From: a virus
IMG/VR virus record: IMGVR_UViG_3300036846_001227
Location: 1-56,993 of that record
Length of the DNA: 56,993 nucleotides
Strand: one strand, 5' to 3'
Position 1 is the first letter of the stretch, and every line of letters begins with the position of its first letter. The notes below the pieces were generated by a model, which did no database searches, was not told where the DNA came from, and saw only the letters and a list, made by a program, of their open reading frames with translations. The position numbers were made by a program, and so were the translations under genes. Shown here in pieces: positions 4,489-56,200 of the stretch.

Positions 4489-5729
4489 GATCCGGTCTGC
4501 AAGATGGTTAGCCTTTCAGAGGAGCGGGTGACGGCGGTGTAGAGCCAGCGCCGGCGGAAGTCCCGGTCGTAGGCCATGAGCCGGTCGTCGATAACGACGA
4601 CACGCGGCCACTCCGATCCCTGGGCCTTGTGCGCGGTGATGGCGTAGGCCCAGTCGAACTCGACCTGGTCCTTGTTCTTCCAGGTCTGGTTAGTCTCCTT
4701 GAGGAGATCGGGATTGAAGTGGCACTCGAAGTGGTAGCGGGCGATCTTGACGCTAGGGTGGACGGTGCCGTCTACCAGCAAGTCGGCGGTGAAGTAGGGT
4801 AGGCCCTGGCGGTCCAGGTGGATGCGCCAGACGTTGACCATCTGGCCGTTGATAAAGCCTTCGCCGTAGTTGTTGCGGCAGCAGATGAGGGGTTCGCCGG
4901 GGCAGGGAGTGTGGCCGACGAAGCCATCCTTGGCCCGGCAGCGGCGGGTCACGGCGAAGCGGCTCTTGTGCCTCCCACATATGACCATGTTGTCGGGGTC
5001 GGTGATGATGTCCCAGACGGCCTCGCCCATGAGCGGCATGACGCGGACCGTGTCGCCGTCGCCCATGTGTGGCCGGATGGGCGAGCCCTGCCGGACCAGC
5101 CAGGCCAGGCGGTCCACGGGCGAGTTCAGGACGGAGCGGTGCGGCTCCGTCAGCCGGAAGTCGGGCTTCCAGTTGAAGAAGCCGGGATCGCCCTTGACCG
5201 GCGGCAGCTGGCCGTCGAGGTCGCCAAGGACGATGGTCGGGACACCCGTAGAAGTGATGTCCTGGACCATGCGGTCGGGCACCATGCTGGACTCGTCGAT
5301 GACCAGGAGGTCCAGGCTTTCGAGGAAGGCCGGCTCGAAGATGCCGGTGAGCTTGCCTTTCTCGTCGTGGCGTGGGTAGTACATCGCAGAGAAGAGGGTG
5401 CGTGCGCCTTCCATCCCCTTCTCCTGCATGACGCGGGCGGCCTTGGCGGTGTAGGCGGCGTAGCAGACTTCGATGGGTTTGGGGTCGAGGGCCTGGACGG
5501 CATGGTAGGCCAGGGTGGTCTTGCCGGTCCCTGCTCCGCCGTCGAGCAGGAAGAACCGGCTCCGCCCCGGCGGGACTGCCGGCTCGTGGCTGTAAGCTAT
5601 GTCCTCAAAGAGGGAGTCGATTTCGTTGAACGGGGTTGGTGGTGTGGTAGGTTGTGGCGGTTGGAGGTCTGCCCACCACTTCTTGATGGCGGCTAGGGCG
5701 GCTTGTTGTTGCTCAGATAATTCGATCAT
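4485..5729 (-). CDS. SF1 DNA helicase, Dda/RecD-like
   Basis: 414 residues from ATG 5729, chosen because it overlaps the polymerase stop (ATGA) and has GGAG nine bases upstream; an in-frame ATG at 5762 is less likely. Walker A is LLDGGAGTGKTT (about residues 61-72), Walker B is LLVIDESSM, motif III is VLGDLDGQLPP (Gln contacting phosphate), and the C-terminal motifs are AITAHKAQGSEWPRVVVID and LYTAVTRSSERL, diagnostic of the UvrD_C_2/Dda/RecD2 group. A 5'-3' helicase working with the polymerase and DUF3987 ATPase at the fork is the expected role. Confidence 0.88.
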   Translation of the reverse strand: MIELSEQQQAALAAIKKWWADLQPPQPTTPPTPFNEIDSLFEDIAYSHEPAVPPGRSRFFLLDGGAGTGKTTLAYHAVQALDPKPIEVCYAAYTAKAARVMQEKGMEGARTLFSAMYYPRHDEKGKLTGIFEPAFLESLDLLVIDESSMVPDRMVQDITSTGVPTIVLGDLDGQLPPVKGDPGFFNWKPDFRLTEPHRSVLNSPVDRLAWLVRQGSPIRPHMGDGDTVRVMPLMGEAVWDIITDPDNMVICGRHKSRFAVTRRCRAKDGFVGHTPCPGEPLICCRNNYGEGFINGQMVNVWRIHLDRQGLPYFTADLLVDGTVHPSVKIARYHFECHFNPDLLKETNQTWKNKDQVEFDWAYAITAHKAQGSEWPRVVVIDDRLMAYDRDFRRRWLYTAVTRSSERLTILQTGS

Positions 5730-6481
5730 GCTGCTTGGCTCCATTTGTGGACCTCGCCCCAACTGCTGGGTGAATACTTCAGGCTCACGGGGATGTAGAG
5801 CGGGTCGTCAAAAGGGATGCGGACCTGCATCGCCTGGATGATCTCGGGGAAGATGCCGGGGCAGAGGTCCTCTCGCACTTCAAGGAGGAGGCTGTCGTGG
5901 ACCTGTAGCTTTAGGCGGACAGAGTCGCGGGGGAACTTGGCCCTCACTTGGAGCATGGCGTGGTTGATGGCGATGGCGACACCCGATTGGCCGAGCCAAG
6001 CAAGGGCTTGCGGTAGCAAGGCCTCGGCGTTGTGGCCGTCGAGCCGCTCAAAGTAGAAGCGGCGGAACCCCCAGACGTTGCGGATGTAATGTTGCAGGCG
6101 CAGGAGGGTGAGGGTGCTCTCGTGCCACCGCCGGATACCGGGGTACTTGCCAAACCAGTAGTGCTGGAAGGCTTCGGCGATGGCGATGGTGGTGCCCAGC
6201 GTGGCCGCCAGGGTGCGGGCCTTGCCGCCGTAGTTGGTGAGGTGGAGGCCGGCCTTGAGCGCCTGGCGAGAGACTACCTTCTTGGCCCAGCCCGATACCA
6301 GGGCGGCGTTCTCGGTGTGAACGTCCAGGCCCTCTTGGAAGATGACCTTGAGGGCCGGCTCGTTGGCGCTCCACGCAACGATCTGGGCGTCTGCGCGATC
6401 GAAGTCCGCGTCTACTAATACCCACCCGGGGTCTGGCTTGATGAGAGAGCGGATGGGGGGGAGGTCAGGCTGGAAGGGCAT
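5726..6481 (-). CDS. DNA polymerase family A, C-terminal (palm/fingers) fragment
   Basis: 251 residues from ATG 6481, preceded by AAGGAAG. It holds all catalytic motifs of family A: motif A VDADFDRADAQIVAW (Asp26), motif B SRQALKAGLHLTNYGGKA (Arg72, Lys76, Tyr84-Gly85) and motif C KLQVHDSLLLEV (His195-Asp196). It begins with MPFQPDLPPIRSLIKPDPGW, the stretch that in intact enzymes directly follows the 'NLQN(I/L)P' strand. That strand ends the separate gene at 6829-8601. Together the pieces make one complete polymerase, so the gene is split, probably giving a two-subunit enzyme. The start overlaps the end of the intervening Cys-rich gene by 17 bases, so it is in the same operon. Confidence 0.88.
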   Translation of the reverse strand: MPFQPDLPPIRSLIKPDPGWVLVDADFDRADAQIVAWSANEPALKVIFQEGLDVHTENAALVSGWAKKVVSRQALKAGLHLTNYGGKARTLAATLGTTIAIAEAFQHYWFGKYPGIRRWHESTLTLLRLQHYIRNVWGFRRFYFERLDGHNAEALLPQALAWLGQSGVAIAINHAMLQVRAKFPRDSVRLKLQVHDSLLLEVREDLCPGIFPEIIQAMQVRIPFDDPLYIPVSLKYSPSSWGEVHKWSQAA

Positions 6482-6828: not shown

Positions 6829-8601
6829 TTACTCCTCCATCCGAGGTAAGTTCTGCAAATTCCCAGCCTCCCCAAGGGCGGTGTGGTTCATCGAGAAGCG
6901 GTAGGTTTCGGGGCCGGCGACGTTGATGGCGGGGCGTAGCCGGCCATCGCGGCTGAGGCGCATGTCGAGGAAGTTCTCCTTGTAGACGGCGAGGGAGCGC
7001 ACAGCTTGGATGCGCTCGACCAGGGGCCGCAGGATGGGCCGCACGATCTTGAAGCGTTCAAGGGCGTGGTCGTTGACGGTGGGCTGGCGGGTCTTCCTGT
7101 GTAGGATGGGCTTGAGCCGGAGGTCTTCATAGAAGAGGCGCTGCATCTGTTGCGAGGACTCGACGTTGAGCGGATGCCCCACAGCCTCGTTGATCCAAGC
7201 CTGAGCCTCCTTGATCTGGCGCTCGACATCGGCCCGGTAGGTACGGCGGGCGGTATCGTCGAAGGCGAGGCCGGCGAACATCATCTCGAAGACAGCGGGG
7301 AAGAGGCTCATCAGGAACTCGTACTGCTCCCACAGCTTGTTGCTGTGAAGCATTTGCCGCTGCGCAGCAAATACCTCGTGTGTTCTCACGAGGTCTTCGC
7401 AGTTGTAGTGCCAGTATTGGAGTTCGTCGTGGATTGAGGGGTCCCAGCCTTTGCCGTCGTCCTTCCAGTAACGGTGGTAGTCACAGTAGATCGAGGAGCA
7501 GAATAAGAGGCTGTAGCTGCTGCCGCTCTTGCTTGTGCGGCCGGTGATGGGGTCGATCTTGCCGCCGAGCTGGGCCGGGAAGAGCGTGTGCTGAGCGACC
7601 ATGCTGTCGTGGGTGAAGCGGGGAAGCCAACCCCAGTTGTGGGCTATGACCTGACAGTCGTGGAGGCCGTTGTGGAAGAGGACAGGCCGGCGTCGCAGGT
7701 AATCGCGGAGGAGGAGCACGGCGTCCCGCTCTTCCTCTGGAGAGGCCCACCAATGGGGGTTGTCGCCGGCTCGATGAGCAAAAGGCACACAGCAAGCAGT
7801 GTGAGGATCAACAGCAAGGCCAAGGCAATAAATGCGAGCGTCATGTACACGTTCGGTGGAGTAGTCGTTCTCAACGTCGGCGGTGACGTAGGCGTCTTCG
7901 GGGAGCGTCGCGAAGTTGTCTCCCAGCCAGTCCCGTAGCTCGTGCAGCGAGCTAGGGACCGTGAAGCTCCAGGTGGGCCGTCGCACTTCCGGGTAGCGGG
8001 ACTCGCGAAGGGCTCGCTTGAGGTCATGGATGACGATCCCCTTCCACTGGTATTCACGGAGGACCGAGGCGGTGTGAACAGCGGGGATAAGTTTGATCCC
8101 CTTGCCATCCACTGGGCCGCCCGAAGCCTCCATGATGGAGCCGCGCCAAGACCTTATGCCAGTGTGCCCTGTAAGTGCCCAGAGGGCGGTGTTGCCCATG
8201 GCGATGATCAGGCGGGGCCGGAGGGCGTCGATGTCCTTCTGTAGCTGGACGAGGCCCTCGATCACCGGGCGGCGAGCACACCGGCCCGCGATCACGGTGA
8301 TGTCGGCAGCTAGGCGAGAGGCTGCATTGGCAAGGCTTAGGGTGTCGAGCTTGGGGGCATTCTTGGCCTCGGTCTTGGTGGCGAAGAACTTCTCGATCTC
8401 GTTGCCGGGGGGCCGCTCATGGCAGACGTTGGTGATGAAGAGTTGGGAGCGGAGGAGGCCGGCCGCACTCAACTCCTTGTCCAGCTCCCACCCGCTGATG
8501 CCGGAGAAGGGCCGCCCGGAGCGATCCTCCTCCTGGCCGGGCGCTTCCCCACACAGAAGTATTCCCCCAGGTGTTCGCGGCCCTTCTTGGATCAGACGCA
8601 T
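6829..8601 (-). CDS. Uracil-DNA glycosylase / 3'-5' exonuclease / polymerase A N-terminal half
   Basis: 590 residues from ATG 8601 with GGAAG upstream; it lies six bases past the dNMP kinase stop. Residues 1-200 are a family 4-like uracil-DNA glycosylase: GGILLCGEAPGQEEDRSGRP near the start, TNVCHERPPG, LIIAMGNTALWALTG, and AVHTASVLREYQ in place of the usual His-Pro-Ser motif. Next comes a proofreading domain with exo I VTADVEND, exo II LFHNGLHDCQVI and exo III HYNCEDLVRTHEV. The thumb and start of the palm follow, ending PETYRFSMNHTALGEAGNLQ plus NLPRMEE and a TAA stop. The active-site half is in a separate downstream gene. A glycosylase fused to the polymerase would put uracil recognition at the fork. 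Confidence 0.85.
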   Translation of the reverse strand: MRLIQEGPRTPGGILLCGEAPGQEEDRSGRPFSGISGWELDKELSAAGLLRSQLFITNVCHERPPGNEIEKFFATKTEAKNAPKLDTLSLANAASRLAADITVIAGRCARRPVIEGLVQLQKDIDALRPRLIIAMGNTALWALTGHTGIRSWRGSIMEASGGPVDGKGIKLIPAVHTASVLREYQWKGIVIHDLKRALRESRYPEVRRPTWSFTVPSSLHELRDWLGDNFATLPEDAYVTADVENDYSTERVHDARIYCLGLAVDPHTACCVPFAHRAGDNPHWWASPEEERDAVLLLRDYLRRRPVLFHNGLHDCQVIAHNWGWLPRFTHDSMVAQHTLFPAQLGGKIDPITGRTSKSGSSYSLLFCSSIYCDYHRYWKDDGKGWDPSIHDELQYWHYNCEDLVRTHEVFAAQRQMLHSNKLWEQYEFLMSLFPAVFEMMFAGLAFDDTARRTYRADVERQIKEAQAWINEAVGHPLNVESSQQMQRLFYEDLRLKPILHRKTRQPTVNDHALERFKIVRPILRPLVERIQAVRSLAVYKENFLDMRLSRDGRLRPAINVAGPETYRFSMNHTALGEAGNLQNLPRMEE

Positions 8602-9440: not shown

Positions 9441-9485
9441 CGGTTAGCTCCTGTGTGTGCAGCACCTTTGGCGGTGCTTGCGATT

Positions 9486-9506
9486 GCTACTTGAGGCCGC
9501 TTCGCT
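9486..9506. repeat. Dispersed 21-bp GC-rich element, copy 1
   Basis: The element contains CTTGAGGCCGCTTCGCT. The 21 bases at 9486-9506 recur exactly at 11083-11103, and the core recurs at 25694-25710. It lies in the 227-bp gap between two leftward genes and contains a small dyad around GGCCGCTTCGCTGGCC in the other copies. Role unknown; a transcript hairpin or recombination site are options. Confidence 0.6.
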
Positions 9507-9530
9507 ACCCGTAATCCGAGCGAAGCGAGG

Positions 9531-9559
9531 ATACTGCGATTGCTGCTGGTTTTGTGCAG
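9531..9559 (-). repeat. Dispersed 29-bp repeat, copy 1 (inverted)
   Basis: Reverse complement of the sequence at 19282-19310 and 26951-26979 (core CTGCACAAAACCAGCAGCAA). It is exact over 29 bases, and four more flanking bases match the 26951 copy. It lies in the intergenic gap 9441-9667, which otherwise holds only the GC-rich element at 9486 and GAGCGAAGCGAG at 9518-9529. Confidence 0.8.
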
Positions 9560-11051: not shown

Positions 11052-11082
11052 CCTGTGTGTCCTTTTGTGGCTTGCTGCGCTT

Positions 11083-11103
11083 GCTACTTGAGGCCGCTTC
11101 GCT
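11083..11103. repeat. Dispersed 21-bp GC-rich element, copy 2
   Basis: Identical over 21 bases to 9486-9506 and followed by GGCCGCTAG. It occupies most of the 57-bp gap between the nuclease gene and the Sak4-like gene. Confidence 0.6.
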
Positions 11104-11108
11104 GGCCG

Positions 11109-13530: not shown

Positions 13531-13887
13531 TCAAACTTGAGGCTCCTCCGTGTCAACAAGTGGCTCGTAGGCCTCGAAGGTAAGGAGCTTCCTGGTGATA
13601 ATATGTCGGTTATACCTCACCTGGTAGGAGCCAGGGGTGAGGGGGTGGATGGTAAGGCTCATGTCCTTTAGGGTGGCGTGGAGTTCCTGGAGGATGGACG
13701 ACTCGTCCCCTCGCTCTATGGCGTCGGCGACAGCGCGGCGGAAGCGATGGAACTCATTGCGTATGCTGTAAGCGTCGGACTTGGACAGGTTGTTGCTGGC
13801 GAGGCGGCCCGAGGGAGTGTCCTCGAACTTCTGGATTAGCTCTATGAGGGATACTGGGAACTCAGTCCAGCGCCGCTTGGTTGTCAT
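13531..13887 (-). CDS. Hypothetical protein, 118 residues (paralog of 15546-15938)
   Basis: ATG after AAAGGAG. Motifs RRWTEFPVSLIELIQ, LSKSDAYSIRNEFHRFRRAV and LHATLKDMSLTI are paralleled in the 130-residue protein at 15546-15938 (RRDWREFPIAY, MSWNDARFAQRELRYFFRAL, SLSQRLRISC). Helical N-terminal two thirds with a beta C-terminus. It flanks the nested-dyad region and is the first gene read leftward from it, so a regulator or origin-binding protein is conceivable; not shown. Confidence 0.65.
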   Translation of the reverse strand: MTTKRRWTEFPVSLIELIQKFEDTPSGRLASNNLSKSDAYSIRNEFHRFRRAVADAIERGDESSILQELHATLKDMSLTIHPLTPGSYQVRYNRHIITRKLLTFEAYEPLVDTEEPQV

Positions 13888-14235
13888 GGGGTGCTCCTTT
13901 TTGCTTGGTTTGCGACTTTGAAGTCGGCTGTCGCTTTTGTCAAGCAGCTTGTTGGATTGACTTGGTTTCCTGTATTCGAGTGTTTGTTTGACCTAGTGGT
14001 TATTCCTGCGGCAGGCGAAGGAACAGATGAAAGAAAGTTGTTGACTTGTTAGAAATGATGTTTAGTGTATATGTGTAATATTAATATATCACATAGAACC
14101 ACACATATACACACAAACTATACACTCCCTATCGTCGTCACGCGCAGCAAATACCACTAGGGGGAAGAAACACTCGAATGTAGGAAACCAAGTCAACCCT
14201 ACTTTGTGTTTGTCAAAACAAGAGGAGCGATTGGA
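13888..14235. other. 348-bp AT-rich intergenic region between divergent genes
   Basis: Noncoding on both strands, strikingly AT-rich from about 14025 to 14130, and flanked by a leftward gene (13887) and a rightward gene (14236). It contains the nested inverted repeats described separately and TTGACT at 14043 and 13957. Confidence 0.75.
13957..14196. other. Nested dyad: 29-bp outer and 12-bp inner inverted repeats
   Basis: The 29 bases at 13957-13985 (TTGACTTGGTTTCCT, two variable bases, ATTCGAGTGTTT) match the reverse complement of 14168-14196 at 27 of 29 positions. Inside them GTGTATATGTGT (14065-14076) is the exact inverse of ACACATATACAC (14101-14112), around an AT core (AATATTAATATATC). 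Symmetric protein sites around an easily melted centre between divergent genes suggest a replication origin or a two-way transcription switch. Confidence 0.7.
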
Positions 14236-19281: not shown

Positions 19282-19310
19282 CTGCACAAAACCAGCAGCA
19301 ATCGCAGTAT
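19282..19310 (+). repeat. Dispersed 29-bp repeat, copy 2
   Basis: Exact 29-base match to 26951-26979 and to the reverse complement of 9531-9559. It lies in the gap upstream of the VWA gene, starting 13 bases before that gene's start codon, so it may sit in its leader. Confidence 0.8.
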
Positions 19311-22571: not shown

Positions 22572-22769
22572 TTAGCTCCTCTTGGTGGTCAGGTGCCATG
22601 CGCCGCACCAGCAACGGTAGGCGTGCTGGAGGGGAGCGTGGAACTTGCGGTGGATGTAGGCAGCGTGCTCCTCCGCCTCTTCGCGGTTGTTGTAGGGCTT
22701 CTTGAGGCAGGCACTGTCTCGGGAGGACAGGTGCTGGCGAAGGCGCTTGAGGGCGTCGTACATGCTCAT
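22572..22769 (-). CDS. Small Cys-containing phage protein, 65 residues
   Basis: Start overlaps the upstream stop (ATGA). Pattern C-x-K-K-x-Y...AEEHAAYIHRK...YRCWCGAWHLT matches a common small phage family with a degenerate zinc ribbon (one Cys near residue 21, a C-x-C pair near 53). Function unknown. Confidence 0.7.
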   Translation of the reverse strand: MSMYDALKRLRQHLSSRDSACLKKPYNNREEAEEHAAYIHRKFHAPLQHAYRCWCGAWHLTTKRS

Positions 22770-22960
22770 GGGTGCCATCCGGGGGCAACATGCGCGACCC
22801 AGCCGAGCACTTGGTCGAAGTAGCGGCCCAGGGCGAAGCCCACGCCCACGCAGGCGAGCATGGCGAGCGCAAGCATGGTCAGGCGCAACCACGAGCGCCG
22901 CAGGCGCGAGTGGGCGAGGGGAGCGATGCTCCCCAAGCCCGGTATGTGGTCTAGACTCAT
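22766..22960 (-). CDS. Single-pass membrane protein, 64 residues
   Basis: ATG 22960 overlaps the upstream stop. One membrane helix (LTMLALAMLACVGVGFALGR). The C-terminus (GWVAHVAP...) is encoded by an isolated copy of the iteron-like repeat (22781-22801), so the gene end may have been rewritten by that element. Confidence 0.6.
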   Translation of the reverse strand: MSLDHIPGLGSIAPLAHSRLRRSWLRLTMLALAMLACVGVGFALGRYFDQVLGWVAHVAPGWHP

Positions 22961-23392: not shown

Positions 23393-23623
23393 CTAGGCCC
23401 GGGTGCGGATGCGGGAGGCGGGGATGCCGGTGCGGACGAAGTACGTCCAGGTGGCGTAGCGGTCGCCGGCCTTGGCATCGTCGCAGCGCATGACGATGCG
23501 GGCGCGTTGGGCGAGGCTCATCGTGTCGCAGCCCCTGGTGTCGGCGTACAGGTTGCAGAGGTTGTCTATGTCCTCTGAAGCATTGTTCTGGATGTCCTGG
23601 AGTACCTGTGTAGCGATCTTCAT
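23393..23623 (-). CDS. Hypothetical protein, 76 residues, first gene of the leftward block
   Basis: ATG 23623 after AGGAAG. Helical (KIATQVLQDIQNNASEDIDN) with three Cys; ends in a basic tail (ASRIRTRA). It is the promoter-proximal gene next to the iteron region, and such genes often encode early host-takeover proteins, but nothing specific can be said. Confidence 0.6.
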   Translation of the reverse strand: MKIATQVLQDIQNNASEDIDNLCNLYADTRGCDTMSLAQRARIVMRCDDAKAGDRYATWTYFVRTGIPASRIRTRA

Positions 23624-23699
23624 GGCCTGACTTCCTGTGTGGTAGGTTGTTACTTGGTAGGCGAACGCCAATATTGGGCGCTTTGCCTGGAAACTTGTC

Positions 23700-23719
23700 G
23701 ATGCGACAAATCGACGCAG
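23700..23719 (-). promoter_or_regulatory. Shared 20-bp upstream motif, copy at the 23623 gene
   Basis: GATGCGACAAATCGACGCAG, matching 22091-22110 at 17 of 20 positions. Here it overlaps a GTCGAT-7-ATCGAC dyad (23697-23715), which would suit a dimeric repressor. Confidence 0.45.
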
Positions 23720-23832
23720 CAAAAGCCCAATGTTTTCAACGGCTTAGCGCTGAATGATACGAAACGGCGGCGTTCCGTTAGCAGGCTCGCCAGCCAACAT
23801 TTGCCGAGGGCCGCCAGGGACTGGACTCAGCC

Positions 23833-24106
23833 GGGGGCAACATGCGCGACCCACCCGTGGCTGGGAGGGCTTGACAGATGGGGATCTGACCAGGTACTCA
23901 CCTCCAGTGAGGTGAGTACCTGGTGGGGGGCAACATGCGCGACCCACCCGTGGCTGGCGGCTGTGGCGAAGTGGGAACGCGGCCGGTTGTGGTCCGGTCA
24001 GGAGCGGGTTCGCCCCACGTGGGGGCAACATGCGCGACCCACCCCCACAGATCAGCGACCGCGAGCGCCCAACACGGGCGCGAGCGGGGGCAACATGCGC
24101 GACCCA
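23833..24106. repeat. Iteron-like array, four direct copies
   Basis: The 20-base core GGGGGCAACATGCGCGACCC (plus A) starts at 23833, 23926, 24021 and 24086. Copies 1 and 2 stay identical for 32 bases and copies 3 and 4 for 28. Start-to-start spacing is 93, 95 and 65 bases. A fifth copy lies at 22781-22801 inside a gene. All five are in the same orientation. Confidence 0.85.
23889..23924. other. Perfect hairpin, 16-bp stem and 4-base loop
   Basis: ACCAGGTACTCACCTC (23889-23904), loop CAGT, GAGGTGAGTACCTGGT (23909-23924). It lies between repeat copies 1 and 2. No T-run follows on either strand, so it is not an intrinsic terminator. Cruciform, protein-binding site or replication-primer structure are possible. 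Confidence 0.8.
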
Positions 24107-24142
24107 CCCCCACCCCACCCATGGGATTGGGGTGGGTCGCGC
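24097..24142. other. 14-bp inverted repeat formed with the last iteron
   Basis: GCGCGACCCACCCC (24097-24110) is the exact inverse of GGGGTGGGTCGCGC (24129-24142), with an 18-base loop. The left arm is the 3' half of the last direct repeat, so the array ends in a dyad. Confidence 0.75.
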
Positions 24143-24346
24143 CCCACATGCGAGGCGAAAACCTGGCTATGTGGCAGGATGTCGCACCTGTCGATTGTCC
24201 AAGCCGTTGAAGTTGCTGGCCGATCTGGCGAATGGAACGCGACGGGAGCGTTTATTCGGGGCGGTTTTTGGCGAGGTTGTGGTTGACTGATTTCGCCAAA
24301 GGGCATTCCGCCCCAAGGCAAACCCCAGAAGGGAACACAGGTCGCC

Positions 24347-24553
24347 ATGATTACCCCGAAATGCGAAGGCAATACCCTCACCCTCGTGGTTGCGCTGAAC
24401 GTCAAGCCGACGGCGAGCCAGTCGGGCAAGTCGCGGATCGTCGCCAAGACCGGGCCGTTCGTGGAGATTTCCACGCCGTTCGGCATGGTCAAGTACAACC
24501 TGAACGTCATCACGACGGACGAGAACTACGGGAAGGCGCCCGCCAAGGCGTAA
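24347..24553 (+). CDS. Hypothetical protein, 68 residues
   Basis: ATG 24347 with AAGGGA thirteen bases upstream. A compact beta-rich protein (EGNTLTLVVALNVKPTASQS, AKTGPFVEISTPFG, KYNLNVITTDE), like a small OB or SH3-type fold. It is a single-gene unit closed by the intrinsic terminator at 24576, and is the first rightward gene after the iteron region, so an abundant early product is likely. No family recognised. Confidence 0.7.
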   Translation: MITPKCEGNTLTLVVALNVKPTASQSGKSRIVAKTGPFVEISTPFGMVKYNLNVITTDENYGKAPAKA

Positions 24554-24602: not shown

Positions 24603-24699
24603 GGCCGCAGTGAAACGCTACAGTGGCGTTGCGTTGGGCCGATCGTGGAAAACGGTACGGCCCTGGATACCTACCAAGGCGCTAGGAGGGCTGTCAGAC

Positions 24700-25158
24700 A
24701 TGCGAGAGGGCCAGTTGGCTAGTGCGGGAGCCCAACATAGACCCAAGGCGGTCCCACAGCCGCCGGAAGCGGTTACAGACATGGTCTGCGAGATTGGGGA
24801 TGCTGTGGCAGCTGTGGTTGTAGGGTCGGCAACCCGTCTTATGACCTACCATAAACCTGTTGGTAACCCGGCCATCGGTAACCCACATGGTGCCATTCCC
24901 AAGGGACCGTCACATGGTGCCGCTGGTATCGCTGGGCTGCGTGCTGACATAGGCGACGGTAGCCTATCCATTCGTGACCTAGAGCGCATGACGATACGGC
25001 AGCTACAGGATCGCTATAGGGTCTGCCACAGCTACGCTGTGACCATGCGGCGTCATGTGCTGGCCTATGGTCTAGGGGGACGGTGTAGGCTCCCCGGGGG
25101 GAGACCTCGGGACGTCCCCCTCCCTAGGCTAGGGAAGGTGACTGATCCGCGCGCGTAG
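24700..25158 (+). CDS. Putative helix-turn-helix regulator, 152 residues
   Basis: ATG 24700 with AGGAGG ten bases upstream, downstream of the terminator. The N-terminal half is Ala/Val/Gly-rich. The C-terminal half has SIRDLERMTIRQLQDRYRVC and SYAVTMRRHVLAYGL, which fit two helices of a homeodomain-like or HTH DNA-binding domain with basic residues in the second. It could be the regulator that switches to the late genes starting 220 bases downstream. No specific family assigned. Confidence 0.5.
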   Translation: MREGQLASAGAQHRPKAVPQPPEAVTDMVCEIGDAVAAVVVGSATRLMTYHKPVGNPAIGNPHGAIPKGPSHGAAGIAGLRADIGDGSLSIRDLERMTIRQLQDRYRVCHSYAVTMRRHVLAYGLGGRCRLPGGRPRDVPLPRLGKVTDPRA

Positions 25159-25380: not shown

Positions 25381-25698
25381 ATGGCTGACGTACCTGGGTG
25401 GCTCCAGTCCATCATCGACCAGGTGACCGCCGCCCCCACCAACGCGAAGGTCGAGACGCTCCTCCAGCTTGTCGACAACGAGATGCAGCACGGCCTCGGA
25501 TTGACTGCTCCGGCCGCAGTGACATCCGGCCTCCTTGTCGCTGCCGCCGCCGTCGCTACTGCCATCGCCGCGACCCCTCCGGCCGGCGGCGCAACAGGCG
25601 CAACTGGAGCGACCGGGGCCACTGGTGGGACGGGAGGCTCGACAGGTTCCACCGGGGCGACCGGCACCACTACCACATCCTCTCGCTCCACTTCTTGA
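25381..25698 (+). CDS. Small protein with collagen-like tail, 105 residues
   Basis: ATG 25381 preceded by GAAAGGA. The N-terminal half is helical (WLQSIIDQVTAAPTNAKVET), followed by a hydrophobic Ala/Val segment and then Gly-X-Y repeats ([20 protein letters not shown]) and a Thr/Ser end. Short collagen-like proteins are typical virion decorations that trimerise. The stop codon lies inside a copy of the GC-rich dispersed element. Confidence 0.65.
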   Translation: MADVPGWLQSIIDQVTAAPTNAKVETLLQLVDNEMQHGLGLTAPAAVTSGLLVAAAAVATAIAATPPAGGATGATGATGATGGTGGSTGSTGATGTTTTSSRSTS

Positions 25699-25715
25699 GG
25701 CCGCTTCGCTGGCCG
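25694..25715. repeat. Dispersed GC-rich element, copy 3
   Basis: CTTGAGGCCGCTTCGCTGGC (plus CG) repeats the core of 9490-9506 and 11087-11107. Its TGA is the stop codon of the collagen-like gene. Confidence 0.6.
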
Positions 25716-26796: not shown

Positions 26797-27143
26797 GGCT
26801 CCAACAATGGGAGGTCTAGCCATCTTGACGTTACTTGCATCTGGTCCGGCGGCCGTACTGAATGAGGCCGGCTGTCTCCCTTCGGGGTCTGGGTGCTTGC
26901 GCCGACGGATGGGGCCTCGCGCCCCGGCACATCGAAATGCTGGGGATGCGCTGCACAAAACCAGCAGCAATCGCAGTATCAGCAAGCTGGAAGAAGCACA
27001 GGCAAAGTCAGCAGTGCACACGCGCGGTGTACACACACAGCCGTCGCATCGCCGGTATCCCCTCCCGACCAAGATTGGTATAAGCTGGACTCGCCTAGTC
27101 GCGAGCGAAGCGAGCGACTGATCGAAGTTGGGAGGGGTGATAC
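26797..27143. other. 347-bp intergenic region
   Basis: No frame has both a ribosome site and a protein-like sequence. It holds the third 29-bp repeat (26951-26979) and a GCGAGCGAAGCGAGC element (27101-27115) with AGTC/GACT flanks. No clear promoter or terminator seen. Confidence 0.55.
26951..26979 (+). repeat. Dispersed 29-bp repeat, copy 3
   Basis: Core CTGCACAAAACCAGCAGCAA, identical to 19282-19310 and the inverse of 9531-9559; with 9531 the identity continues four bases further (TGCG before the core). Confidence 0.8.
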
Positions 27144-27323: not shown

Positions 27324-27524
27324 GTGCCTATCTTCTTAGAGGACCGCCTCAAGCGCCAAGCCTCCAAGCGAGGCCTGAAAGGCCGGGACGCCGCCCGCTA
27401 TGTCTACGGGACTATGAATAACCGGGGCTATATGCGCGGCAACAAAGTAACCGCCAAGGGCCGCGAAGCAGAGCGCAAGCACCGCTCCCACCAGCGGTCG
27501 AGGCGGCGCACTAGGAGGTCCTGA
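27324..27524 (+). CDS. Basic small protein, 66 residues
   Basis: GTG 27324 directly follows the preceding stop. Lys/Arg-rich over its whole length (EDRLKRQASKRGLKGRDAAR, EAERKHRSHQRSRRRTRRS). The stop overlaps the next start (TGATG). Likely nucleic-acid-binding; no family recognised. Confidence 0.6.
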   Translation: MPIFLEDRLKRQASKRGLKGRDAARYVYGTMNNRGYMRGNKVTAKGREAERKHRSHQRSRRRTRRS

Positions 27525-27820
27525 TGTCTCTTGCGCATGACGACACCCCCGTCGCGCAGACTTACTTGACCCGCGAGGAAGCCGCCGCTTACTTGTCCGA
27601 GCGCTTGCGCGGCCAGTTCAACGCCAAGCAAATCTCCAAGTGGGGCGACAAAGGTCCGCGCTACCGGCTCTTCCGGGGCAACAAGGCTGCCCGAGGCGGC
27701 GGCTGGGGCCGGTGGGCACTCTACACCGCCGAGGACCTCGAAGCCTGGATCGAAACCCAACTCGTGGAGCCGTTCCCCAATGGAAGACCTGACGAGCATT
27801 CTGCCGGCGAAGCGGGTTAA
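27524..27820 (+). CDS. Winged-helix/excisionase-like protein, small terminase candidate
   Basis: 98 residues. YLTREEAAAYLSERLRGQFN then AKQISKWGDKGPRYRLFRG and YTAEDLEAWIETQLVE is the AlpA/excisionase-type helix-turn-helix layout. It overlaps the large terminase start by 41 bases. Small terminase subunits often have such DNA-binding domains and lie just upstream of terL, so it is the best TerS candidate, although somewhat short and without an obvious oligomerisation core. Confidence 0.55.
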   Translation: MSLAHDDTPVAQTYLTREEAAAYLSERLRGQFNAKQISKWGDKGPRYRLFRGNKAARGGGWGRWALYTAEDLEAWIETQLVEPFPNGRPDEHSAGEAG

Positions 27821-30539
27821 CCGGCGACGGAGTAAACCAACCCTCGAACTGCCAGTCTCCGAGCAACTTGTTGCTGGGACGACCCCGCAATGGAGATCCC
27901 TCTTTCAGGTCTTCCTCGACCATCTCACTATCGAGAGCCGGGAGACGGGCACCACCACTCTTGGCAAGCACCTCTGGGGTTCGCAGACCCGCGTCCTCGA
28001 CTTCTTGGCCGCCGGCATGGACGAGGGCATCCGCGACTTCACCATCCTCAAGTCGCGGCAGCTGGGGGAGTGCCTTGACCCCGATACTCGCATCCTGACC
28101 GCCGACCTGCGTTGGGTCGCGATCCGCGACATCAGAGAGGGAGAGGAAGTCGTCGCTGTCGATGAGGAGCCAACAGGTGGAGGACGTGGCCAAGGCCAAA
28201 GGAAGATGCGGCGGGCTACAGTCCAGGCTAAGGTCTACAAGGAACTTGACGCCTACAAGCTACACTTCTCCGATGGGCGTACCATCATTTGCACCGGCAA
28301 GCACCCGTGGCTGGCGAAGCCAACGGCAGGATATAAGCAGCCGACGTGGTGTTCTCTAGAAAGCCCGGCAGGCAATACACGTTTGCGGATCGGCTCACTC
28401 GTCCGTTGGGTAACGGAGCCATGGGGGGCTTCCACCATGGAGGATGGGTGGTTTGGTGGGATGCTTGATGGCGAAGGCTCGTCGCACTGGCCACGCGCCG
28501 GTGGAGGGAACGTAAACGTATCGCAGCGTCGAGGTCCTGTGTGGGACCGCCTGGTCCGCTACGCTGAGCAGGAGGGCTATCACTACAACATCGAGAATGA
28601 TGAACGTCCTCGCCTAACCAAGTACGGTAAGGTCCCTGTACCAAAGCTCGTCTTTTCCCGGGCTAACGAGATCATGCAACTTCTGGGACAGACGAAGCCG
28701 ACGCGCTTCAATACCGACTTCTGGGAAGGCCGGGAGCTTCCAGGCAAGAAGAGCAACATCGGTTACAGCGAGCTGGTTGCGATAGACCGTCTTGGTCGAT
28801 GGCAGGTTGTCGATCTTCAGACAACGATGGGCACCTACATTGCCGAAGGCTTTGTATCGCACAACACCACGATCTGCCTGGCCATCGACCTATTCTGGCT
28901 CTTCCTCTATCCTGGCATCAACGGCTGCATCCTCATCGACGACGAGGGCAACCGCGACAAGATACGGGTGATCCTGCGCCAGTTCGCCAACGGTCTGCCG
29001 CCGAAATGGCGGCATCGGATCGTCGACGACAACAAGACCCTCATGAGCTTCAATGTGGGTGGCAAGCTCTCGATGCTGGACTTCCTCTATGCCGGCACCC
29101 GGCGCTCAACCTTGGGGGCCTCGCGCTCCTATCGCTTTGCCCACATGACCGAGGTCGCCAACTATGGGGACCCGGAGGGCCTGGAGAACTTTATCCAAAC
29201 TCTATCCGAAGGGCACCCCGACCGGCTCTTCATCAAGGAGTCGACCGCCAACCACTTCAATCACTTCTACCATATGTGCGAGCAGGCGAAGGAAGACACC
29301 CACACTCAGCGCTTCTGCTTTGTGGGGTGGTGGTCGCGTGACGATCAGCGCATCGCTTCATCGGACCCTCGCTACAACGAGTACATGGAAGAGCCATGGA
29401 CCGACGAAGAACTCGAACTAAAAGACGAGGTACTCCGATTGTATGATGTCACGGTCGATGACGAGCAACTCTGCTGGTATAGGTGGCGCTCGACGGCCCG
29501 TTCCATCGATGAGGGGATGCTGCACCAGACCCAGCCGTGGACTGAGAGCCAGGCCTTCGTCCTGTCGGGGCGCTCCTTCTTCCCTTTAAGGCGCGTTGAG
29601 GCCGACATCAAGGAGATTTACCAGGCCGCGCCGGCCCAGGACTCGCCCTATGACTTCACGGCCTTTCGGTATTACTTGGGCCAGGACCTCCCCTCCACCA
29701 CTATCGAGGAGGTCCACACCATCGAGGAGGCCGACCTAAAGGTCTGGGAGGACCCCGTCCCCTGGGGAAGATATGTCATAGGGGTTGACCCAGCGTATGG
29801 CCGCAGCGACTGGAACGACTCGCACGCCATCACCGTCTGCCGGTGTTATGCCGACAGGCTGGTGACAGTGGCCGAGTACGGCACTCCCGAACCCGAAACC
29901 TTCCAGGTCACCTGGGCACTCGCTCACCTGGCCGCCCTCTATGATGATTGCTACATCAACATCGAGGTCAAGGGACCCGGCGTCGTCATCATGAACGAGC
30001 TGCGCCGGCTCAAGGTCTGGCTCCAGTCCCAGATGATGGCGACCATTGTCCATGACAAGGACTGGCACAACATCACCGACAACGCCAAATGGTACTTGTG
30101 GCACCGCCCCGACTCCCTCGGCAAGGGTTATGCCTACGGTGTCAACACCACCTATGACCTGAAGATAGCCATAATGAACGAGCTGCGGGACAGCTACATC
30201 AACCATGCCCTGTGGATCAAATCCCTGCGCTGTCTCAAGCAGATGCAGTTTGTGGTACAAGAAGGCGCGGACATCGGGCCGGGTGCCAAGGGCCGCAACC
30301 ACGATGACTACGTCTTCAGTCTCGCCTTTGCTCACCGGGCGTGGCAGGACTGGGTCCGGCAGGACCTGATCGACCTCGGCTACACCTGGCAGCGTGCTCA
30401 GCAGGATGACCTCGACAGGAAGACCGGTCGGCCGCCCAATGTCGTCGCCAGCATCGTGTCCAACTTCTTTGCCAACAAGGAGCGCGACCGCACCGAAGGC
30501 CCACCCGAACAGCAGTGGTACCGGGAGCGCGGCCTGTGA
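27780..30539 (+). CDS. terL: Terminase large subunit interrupted by an intein
   Basis: 919-residue precursor; the mature terminase would be about 654 residues. The ATPase has FTILKSRQLGE, then the intein (residues 98-362), then TTICLAIDLFW. Rejoined, SRQLGETT is a deviant Walker A with the Lys at its start (KSRQ), as in some terminase families. Walker B with catalytic Glu is FAHMTEV (Glu458). The RNase H-fold nuclease has IGVDPAYG (Asp670), INIEVKGPG and KGRNHDDYVFSLAF (Asp842-Asp843). It packages DNA through the portal encoded at 36183. Start ATG 27780 lies within the end of the TerS-like gene. Confidence 0.93.
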   Translation: MEDLTSILPAKRVNRRRSKPTLELPVSEQLVAGTTPQWRSLFQVFLDHLTIESRETGTTTLGKHLWGSQTRVLDFLAAGMDEGIRDFTILKSRQLGECLDPDTRILTADLRWVAIRDIREGEEVVAVDEEPTGGGRGQGQRKMRRATVQAKVYKELDAYKLHFSDGRTIICTGKHPWLAKPTAGYKQPTWCSLESPAGNTRLRIGSLVRWVTEPWGASTMEDGWFGGMLDGEGSSHWPRAGGGNVNVSQRRGPVWDRLVRYAEQEGYHYNIENDERPRLTKYGKVPVPKLVFSRANEIMQLLGQTKPTRFNTDFWEGRELPGKKSNIGYSELVAIDRLGRWQVVDLQTTMGTYIAEGFVSHNTTICLAIDLFWLFLYPGINGCILIDDEGNRDKIRVILRQFANGLPPKWRHRIVDDNKTLMSFNVGGKLSMLDFLYAGTRRSTLGASRSYRFAHMTEVANYGDPEGLENFIQTLSEGHPDRLFIKESTANHFNHFYHMCEQAKEDTHTQRFCFVGWWSRDDQRIASSDPRYNEYMEEPWTDEELELKDEVLRLYDVTVDDEQLCWYRWRSTARSIDEGMLHQTQPWTESQAFVLSGRSFFPLRRVEADIKEIYQAAPAQDSPYDFTAFRYYLGQDLPSTTIEEVHTIEEADLKVWEDPVPWGRYVIGVDPAYGRSDWNDSHAITVCRCYADRLVTVAEYGTPEPETFQVTWALAHLAALYDDCYINIEVKGPGVVIMNELRRLKVWLQSQMMATIVHDKDWHNITDNAKWYLWHRPDSLGKGYAYGVNTTYDLKIAIMNELRDSYINHALWIKSLRCLKQMQFVVQEGADIGPGAKGRNHDDYVFSLAFAHRAWQDWVRQDLIDLGYTWQRAQQDDLDRKTGRPPNVVASIVSNFFANKERDRTEGPPEQQWYRERGL
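28071..28865 (+). other. Intein in terL, 265 residues, with LAGLIDADG-like remnant
   Basis: Residues 98-362 of the precursor. Block A is CLDPDTRILTADLRWVAI (Cys nucleophile at 98); block B is GRTIICTGKHPWLA (Thr172-x2-His175); blocks F and G are VVDLQTTMGTYIAEGFVSHN, ending His361-Asn362 with Thr363 as the first C-extein residue. All splicing residues are present. The middle has one homing-type motif, FGGMLDGEGS (225-234), but the linker is short for a full two-motif endonuclease. It interrupts the ATP-binding loop, so the terminase cannot work until the intein is removed. Confidence 0.93.
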
Positions 30540-53256: not shown

Positions 53257-56200
53257 ATGCCGACGCTCGAAGAGCTTGCCGAGCAACGTCGTCAGAGAAG
53301 GCAAGACGCTGCACCTGGTCCGGCAGCTCCAGCGGATGTTTCCCGGCAACCAACACAGGGTTTGACGCTTCAGCAGCTTGGTGCTCGACGGCGGGGCGAA
53401 GGCGTTGGACCCGAGGCCCGGCCGGCGGAGGAACCGAGGCGCTTCCCACAGACGTTTGGTGAGGAGCTTGCCGAGTTTCCGAGGCTAGAACGCCAACACG
53501 CCACCGAGCACTTCGACAGCATGACGCAGGCGGCCAAGGACTTCTGGAAGCACGACACGGTGTTGGGGCATGCGTGGAACGCTTTGAAGACGGTGGGCGA
53601 GGGGGCCGCCTATGTGATGTCGCCAGTCGAGGCCGGCATCGAAATGGCCGCCGAGCCGTTCGAGACATACGGGGGGAAGGCGGCCCAGGCGGCGGGGTTG
53701 AAAGCTAACCCGGTGCGGGGGCTGGCCTCCAGTCTGGGATCGGCGGGCAGCATCGCCACCCAGTTTGCGATGGACCCGTTGATGGCGGTGGGGCCGCTGA
53801 CCGGATTGGGCAAGGCCGCCACTGCGCTGAGGGAGGGGCCTGTCGGCCAGTTCGCGGAGAAGACCTTCTCGGCGACGACGCGGACCGAGAAGATACCGAG
53901 GCTGGTCACGGACCCGGCGACCGGCGCGCAGATACCTCTGCGCGGCAAGGTTGACAGGTTCGGGAATATAGGGCCGGGCAAGGTGGACCCGGCGACAGGG
54001 TTGCCACCGATCATTACACAGCGGGTGGGGCGGGCCGCCGAGACAGGGCGGATCATTTCAAGGAACCTGACGCTGCGGGGGCTGGAAGGCTTCCGGCAAA
54101 GGGAGGCGCTGGAGAAGTTCCAGAAGGTTGTTGGCGGCCTGAGCCACGATGACCGGATGAACTTCAACTACCACATGGATGCCGACCCTGCAGCGGCCCC
54201 GCTGCCGACGGGATTGCAGCCCCTGGTCCAGGAGTTGAGGCGGCTGATCGATGACGCCGAGGGACGGCTGACCAGCATCGGGGCCTTGAGAAGCGCCAGC
54301 GGCACCTATTGGCCACGCATGTTCCGGGACCCGGATGTAGCCGAGAAGGAGGTCAACGCCTTCCAGGCGGCCCAGGCCGCCGCTACGTCCAGGAGGCCCC
54401 TCCAGGGGTCGAAGGGGGCCGCCGGCCTCTTGAAGAGGACTGTGCCGACGATGCGGGAGAGCATCGACAAGGGCATGGAACTGGTCACCGACAACCCCAT
54501 CGAGATGGCCCTCCTCCGTATGCAGGGGATGGACCACTACTATTATGGGACCCTTATAGGAAGAGAGCTGAAGAAGCTGCCCTACCTGAGGTTTGCCCGG
54601 TGGGGTGGGCAGGAAGCGTTTGCCAGGAGGGAGGGGTTGGTCCCCCTTGACGACAAGTTCTTCGAGGCCCGGTTGCCGCCGGCGGAGGTCAACAAGACCT
54701 TCACGCTGGAGGCGACTCACCGTGAGGGCTTTGATGTCGGGCTAAGACAGGGCGTCGAGGACGTAGCCAAGTACCTAGGCATCAAGCCCGAGCGCCTGTT
54801 TGCCCATGAAGACCCGGTGTTGAACCCGGCCAACCCGGCGGGCGGTGCCTTCGGCTACACCAACCGTTATAGCAAGAAGCTGGTCACTCGGTATGGACAT
54901 GGTGACCTCGTGTTGTTGCACGAGATCGGCCACCACATGAACTACAACTTCCGCATCAGCGACCTGATGAAGAACCAGAACCCGGCGGCCTGGGACCAGC
55001 TGAAAGATTTGGGGCTGGCGCGGGAGGCGATGCCGGCTGCTGTGCTACAGGCGAAGTATCCACAGCACTATGCGTATCTGATCAACGACGAGGAGCGGAT
55101 CGCCAACTTCTTCCACGCCTATTGGCATGCGCCCCACTTGTTGAGGCAGATCGCGCCCGACGCCGAGAAGTTTGTGAAGGACTGGCTGAACCTGCCCACC
55201 AATAGGGGCCTCAAGGGCGTCATCGATAGTGTCAAACCAAGCGTGCGTATCTCCGAGACGCAGCGGGTGGAGAAGCTGGAGGAGCAGTTCCACAAGTTCT
55301 TCCCCGGCGTGAGGTATCTGGGGCGATGGTATGCGCCGGAGCCGGTGGCCCGGGTGTTCAACAACTACGTGTCGCCGGGGCTAGTCCCAAGCAAGCTGGG
55401 GGACATCCTGAGACATGTGGGCAACACGCTCAACATGGCGCAGCTGTCGTTGAGTGCCTTCCATCTGGCGATGGTCAGCATGGATAGTGGGGTGTCGGCG
55501 CTGGCACAGGTGCCACGGGCGGTGGGGAGAGGGGAGTTCGGGCGGGCGGCCACCTTGTTGTCCGCGTCCCTGCCGGTGGTGGGGCCGTTGTCATCGGGGG
55601 TCAGGCAGCTTATCAGGGGGAAGCGGCTGGAAGCGGCCCTGCTTGATCCCAATAAGGCGACGCCTGAGATAGCTCAGATGATCCGGGCCTTCGAGGCCAG
55701 CGGCGGCCGGGTCACCATGGACATGATGTATCGGTCCAACGGAATGGGGGGTTTCTTCCGGGCGATCAAGGGAGGGTATCTGGGGGCGAGCATCAATGAC
55801 ACGCTGAAGTCGGTGGGGGTGAAGACGCCGGTGGCAAGGCAGGTTGTGCAGGGCTTCAAGCTGGCCGGGCGGACCCTGGAGACGACCATCGAGCCGTTGA
55901 TGGTGGCGTTCGTGCCACGGGTGAAGATGGGCGTCTTCCAGGACATGGCGAGTGAATTTATTAAGACACATCCTCATGGCACCCAAGAGGAGTTTGTCGC
56001 GGGGATGCAAAAGGCCTGGGACAGTGTCGATAACCGCCTGGGCGAGATGGTCTACGATAATCTCTTTTGGTCGAAGACCGTGAAGGACCTGAGCTTTCTG
56101 ATGGTGCGGGCGGTGGGGTGGAACCTGGGCACGCAGCGGGAGTTGGGCGGCGGCCTGCTTGATGCGATCAAGGCCACGCATAATGTGGTGACGGGGACTG

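Follow-up and report, generated by a model that had tools for sequence, protein, structure and literature searches.

An array of near-invariant asymmetric repeats with a pairing-conserved hairpin, possibly regulatory, between the divergent gene arms of a podovirus-like phage genus

The stretch of DNA analysed here, referred to as the window, comprises an entire virus record (IMG/VR record IMGVR_UViG_3300036846_001227; 56,993 nucleotides). The 97 bases at its start recur unchanged at its end, so that it can be closed into a circle of 56,896 bp. Judged by gene content, the phage is podovirus-like, with an SU10-like portal and adaptor, a terminase, PolA, and a UDG domain. Its replication and recombination genes encode a Dda-like helicase, a DUF3987 primase, a Sak4-like protein, a PD-(D/E)XK exonuclease, and a dNMP kinase. 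The PolA polymerase domain is split across two open reading frames (5726-6481 and 6829-8601), the N-terminal one being fused to the uracil-DNA glycosylase domain, and the same break is present in contig G006 of the sister genus described below. The large terminase gene contains an in-frame insertion of about 265 codons (28070-28865), not found in the relatives, which starts with Cys, ends with HN ahead of Thr, and is probably an intein. Leftward genes prevail from 23,624 down to about 3.2 kb and rightward genes from 24,347 on.

The isolated-phage collection contained no near relative of the window. The window is close to contigs of one metagenome, from which all three relatives carrying the repeat array (L006, L007, and L010) originate; these and the window constitute the four genomes compared throughout. 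Two further contigs of the genus, L013 and L014, do not cover the intergenic region; L014 and L010 overlap end to end and may be parts of one genome. A sister genus, hereafter genus B, is represented by contig G006 (59 kb; L122-L124) and L133. The gene order around the gap is common to the window and genus B on both flanks, with 59-62% identity for the ATPase and 47% for the first rightward gene.

Between the two gene arms of the window lie four direct copies of a 21-bp box, GGGGGCAACATGCGCGACCCA, with a perfect hairpin and a closing dyad, and a fifth copy is located inside a small leftward gene (Table 1). All five boxes are exact 21-bp matches on the plus strand, and the array copies are spaced by 93, 95, and 65 bp. 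The identity extends beyond the 21-mer to 32 nt between copies 1 and 2 and to 28 nt between copies 3 and 4, and the wider tail ACC is common to the four array boxes. Such repeats arose in none of 100 shuffles, and the window holds no further copy at up to three mismatches. The initial annotation had described the repeats with these spacings and flank lengths, the copy inside the gene, and the gap between divergent arms, all of which were recovered, the gap being borne out by the gene starts. It had also taken the array as noncoding, in agreement with the differing contexts of the boxes and the changes in spacer length and sequence, by which we rejected a coding role.

Table 1. Positions of the features discussed (window coordinates unless a contig is named).
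Feature	Position	Strand	Remarks
Intergenic region	23624-24346		723 bp between divergent gene arms; gene starts 23623 (-) and 24347 (+)
Box 1	23833-23853	+	GGGGGCAACATGCGCGACCCA; conserved core runs about 2 bp further right (ACC)
Box 2	23926-23946	+	adjoins the hairpin
Box 3	24021-24041	+	missing from L007
Box 4	24086-24106	+
Fifth box	22781-22801	+	last codons (WVAHVAP) of the small leftward gene
Perfect hairpin/palindrome	23889-23924		16-bp stem, 4-nt loop, 1 bp ahead of box 2
Closing dyad	24097-24142		arms 24097-24110 and 24129-24142 around CCCATGGG
Candidate promoter	23872-23901	+	TTGACA (23872-23877), 18 bp, TACTCA (23896-23901) in the left hairpin arm
Small leftward gene with fifth box	22766-22960	-	64 aa, hydrophobic stretch
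First gene of rightward arm	24347-24553	+	68 aa, conserved in both genera
HTH-like neighbour	24700-25158	+	152 aa; small four-helix C-terminal region (low-confidence model)
A+T-cored near-palindrome (220-290 bp)	13935-14218; L014:8466-8754; L013:8340-8624; L124:14983-15204

The four genomes contain 18 boxes altogether, with only three substitutions in the 21-mer overall, while the coding DNA that flanks them, in the first rightward gene, shows differences of 5-13% among these genomes. The conserved core of 21-23 bp is sharply bounded, as the information content drops from 2 bits to near zero within a single base at the left edge and within a few at the right one. Every copy has the same orientation, and the positions are fixed in all four genomes, with boxes in the gap and in one leftward gene, where they occupy the same codons. 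The initial annotation had concluded from the gene-internal copy that the unit moves, a conclusion not supported by its identical place, the last codons of the 64-aa gene, in each genome. Synonymous positions of this copy are conserved at 6/6 versus 18/31 (p=0.058), a marginal difference that is suggestive only when taken alone. In L010 the gene-internal box is a tandem duplicate, and a GIY-YIG-like gene (named by eye; L010:1-320 with L014:1-300) stands in place of the genes beside the fifth box.

Copy number in the gap varies (4, 4, 2, and 3), as do the spacings (93/95/65, 124/81/65, 88, and 88/34), so that helical phasing of the boxes was dropped; the pattern in L007 resembles a deletion between boxes 2 and 4. 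What all four genomes keep is box 1, a spacer of about 34 bp (longer in L006), the hairpin, box 2, and a conserved tail with CCCATGGG. Searching for the repeat in related phages, as proposed with the initial annotation, thus gave three relatives with boxes at the same places, and a wider search of viral contigs found arrays in these three only, with one chance-like match each in L008, L009, and L011. A flank-pattern scan added no members to the family, and no phage record matched the array at the DNA level. A search of 84,980 bacterial and archaeal genomes, one per species, found no exact copy of a 20-mer of the box, which indicates that the box is phage-specific as far as searched and speaks against a host-derived repeat.

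The hairpin has the longest perfect stem in the genome, and 20 shuffles never gave a stem above 11 bp, in line with the stem-loop that had been noted initially. In all four genomes it ends 0-1 bp from box 2, forming an inverted repeat directly upstream of one box, and it is perfect in each, with 16 bp around the loop CAGT or 15 bp around the loops ACG, TAT, and ACA. Positions 1, 4, 6, and 11 of the 15 pairs vary between the genomes, always on both sides and without any G-T pair; this count excludes the extra base pair of the window, itself two-sided. Because the variable positions remain complementary, the pairing itself is kept in the four sequences, which may reflect either template switching as the DNA replicates or selection acting on a folded strand. 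As a single DNA strand, the hairpin region is far more stable than shuffled sequences (z -4.9 to -7.2). The closing dyad, also described at the outset, is exact over 14 bp, with 21-nt arms matching at 90%. The left arm of the dyad is part of box 4 with its flank, and the right one repeats the 3' portion of the box with its flank in inverted form; the dyad is exact in the window only and imperfect in the relatives. An intrinsic terminator was rejected, in accordance with the initial annotation, as there is no T run on either side of the stem and a terminator scan called none. The region gave no Rfam match above the gathering score and no tRNA, and a rolling-circle origin was discarded because the loop sequence is not conserved and no Rep was found among the proteins searched.

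Between boxes 1 and 2, the elements TTGAC and TACT are kept in all four genomes at a spacing of 17-18 bp despite the divergence of the spacer. The aligned pattern (TTGACR, 17-18 bp, TACTnM) points rightward and might be a promoter with a weak -10 element, although a consensus promoter scan did not report 23872-23901 and found no convincing match. We rejected a sigma-54 promoter because the GG-to-GC spacing is 11-12 instead of 10, and a single-subunit RNA polymerase promoter because no such polymerase was recognised among the proteins searched and the box has no A+T-rich part. A GYGGCGTTNCGTT motif flanks the array (23767-23779 and 24623-24635), possibly by chance (12/100 shuffles), and similar AACGC/GCGTT repeats occur near the gap in genus B.

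The asymmetric, conserved boxes, which lie in one orientation both at the control region between divergent genes and within an operon, are consistent with sequence-specific sites of the operator or stoperator type for a predicted phage-encoded DNA-binding protein. By analogy with known phages, we favour this interpretation tentatively, rating its chances a little short of even. The protein would bind boxes flanking a promoter region and regulate outward transcription, and the fifth box, about 1 kb into the leftward operon, would serve as an auxiliary site. The hairpin by box 2 might be a structural element, an extruded DNA cruciform or a stem-loop of the transcript, selected for base pairing and not for sequence. 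A possible DNA-binding protein is the HTH-like product of 24700-25158, modelled with a mean pLDDT of 49.5. However, this neighbour is also found in genus B, which has no box, and a perfect palindrome with changing sequence is not something that operators need; both count against operators. No cognate binding protein or repressor for the box was found, and we therefore do not claim membership in a known family.

Several groups of phage repeats resemble the array in part. Cluster K mycobacteriophages contain 13-bp asymmetric repeats (SAS), with a 17-bp inverted repeat just upstream in ESAS (PMC3203893). The boxes share with them a short, asymmetric, strongly conserved sequence, a subset directly preceded by an inverted repeat across a variable spacer, positions kept between related phages, and absence from host genomes (PMC3203893). 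In contrast, SAS are found in 11-19 copies per genome just upstream of start codons, whereas the boxes are longer (21-23 bp), number five, four of them in one gap, and lie about 200-240 bp from the nearest starts; the ESAS arms are imperfect with a common consensus, whereas the hairpin arms here are perfect and change in sequence (PMC3203893). The stoperators of cluster A, each bound by a monomer, are asymmetric sites that occur in promoters and in short spaces between genes (PMC9283540). They are likewise phage-specific, in one orientation, and present both at a promoter region and within an operon, but they are 13 bp long, exceed 20 genome-wide, and are bound by a known repressor, which we did not find here (PMC9283540). 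In contrast to cluster A, no integrase was seen among the window proteins searched. The 17-bp repeats and A+T-rich elements of cluster O are similarly genus-specific and invariant, lie in gaps and genes, and undergo deletions via recombination, but the cluster O repeat is palindromic, unlike the box, and has 34 copies in Corndog (PMC4351075). The repeats of the halovirus HF2 are also intergenic with positions kept across the genus; however, they are A+T-rich promoters, and the box is G+C-rich (PMC8707807). The present genus, without close isolated relatives, adds to the few groups with their own invariant noncoding repeats, here combined with a hairpin whose arms change together.

This hairpin could suggest that box 2 and the adjoining stem act as a single composite signal that depends on structure: the DNA would extrude as a hairpin in which pairing and not sequence matters, to be read together with the fixed 21-bp box. 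We consider this improbable; if true, it would represent a new type of initiation signal for transcription, replication, or packaging in this genus. The boxes might instead be neutral or selfish repeats acting as recombination points, spreading and contracting without any regulatory role while template switching keeps the hairpin. The copy number of 2-4 and patterns fitting deletion between boxes are as expected for such repeats, as are the exclusively two-sided Watson-Crick changes of the hairpin without G-T pairs. In L010, homology to the other genomes restarts exactly at the left edge of the tandemly duplicated 20-bp box, next to the GIY-YIG-like gene that replaced the neighbours. Yet the fixed positions in four genomes, the near-invariant sharp-edged core in one orientation, and the retention of box 1, hairpin, and box 2 in all of them make a purely neutral origin rather unlikely.

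The comparison with genus B bears on the operator-or-origin proposal of the initial annotation, of which the operator part gained from the sharply bounded, near-invariant sites at the control region and in the leftward operon, whereas the iteron-origin part was weakened. The gaps of genus B contain no box at up to five mismatches and no comparable hairpin, implying that the array is lineage-specific and not an essential origin of the whole family. Iteron plasmid origins consist of direct, near-identical repeats of 18-22 bp, accompanied by a partial copy in inverted orientation and by another copy lying apart. The array is alike in having identical 21-bp direct repeats in one orientation (about 17-22 bp is typical), an inverted partial copy (24129-24142), and the outlying fifth copy. 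At such an origin, an initiator would bind the direct repeats, the hairpin would extrude, and the DNA would open beside the array, next to which a flank of lower G+C content (47-50% at 23600-23760) is found. Unlike iteron origins, the array is accompanied by no recognised Rep gene, no DnaA box (0 exact matches to TTWTNCACA in the window), and no A+T-rich unwinding element; the array windows are 62-73% G+C, and the best duplex-instability window of the gap reaches only the weakest 4% of the genome. No initiator family was recognised among the proteins searched, many small proteins having no match or not being searched, and box spacing is not helically phased across the relatives.

The detrended cumulative GC skew of the window turns at 24,025, inside the array, as an origin there might predict. 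However, by the usual convention a skew of the sign seen at 24 kb marks a terminus, and gene orientation together with the C-rich third positions on both coding strands explains much of the turn. G006 has its gap at 6.0-6.6 kb, and although no array is present there, its skew peaks no more than about 1 kb away, at 7,371. As the turn is found close to the gap whether or not an array is present, the skew check suggested by the initial annotation lends no support to an origin, and we dropped this evidence. We regard an iteron-type origin at the divergent gap of the window as unlikely.

A packaging start was also considered, in which the small terminase would bind the boxes next to a cut site located 3.4 kb before the terminase genes. 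Downstream of the gap, a small wHTH-like gene (27524-27820) overlaps with the gene of the large terminase, and genome ends are commonly located ahead of terminase genes. The array also resembles the R sites of lambda cosB, which are multiple, irregularly spaced direct repeats bound by the small terminase. This possibility seems improbable to us, since genus B retained the terminase pair but not the boxes, and packaging accounts for neither the hairpin nor the gene-internal box 1 kb away.

The weakest duplex of the window is found far from the array, which further disfavours an origin there. The least stable 60-bp stretch (14,049; 5.6 sd) is the centre of a 284-bp near-palindrome with an A+T core between divergent genes, conserved and syntenic in both genera (Table 1). 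The counterpart in G006 (54,983-55,204) is also A+T-cored, and no other DNA in that genome is less stable (6.4 sd). It occupies the matching place in the gene order, beside a gene resembling (by eye) the product of 13531-13887 in the window. Folded as single strands, the palindromes of the window and G006 are far more stable than shuffled sequences (z -9.9 and -7.6, respectively). Comparing the genera thus redirects the search for an origin to this dyad, at the same place in both, which appears to be a better candidate than the array, although a symmetric divergent promoter is another possibility for it.

The box is not the only invariant repeat of this genus. A 29-mer, CTGCACAAAACCAGCAGCAATCGCAGTAT, occurs in the window at 9531-9559 (-), 19282-19310 (+), and 26951-26979 (+), and the genus has 11 identical copies of it across six records, all between genes at fixed sites and with flanks that have diverged. 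This second family at fixed sites suggests a general use of such motifs in the genus. A third family, around CTTGAGGCCGCTTCGCT, is located at 9479-9511, 11076-11108, and 25683-25715 of the window, in intergenic or gene-end positions.
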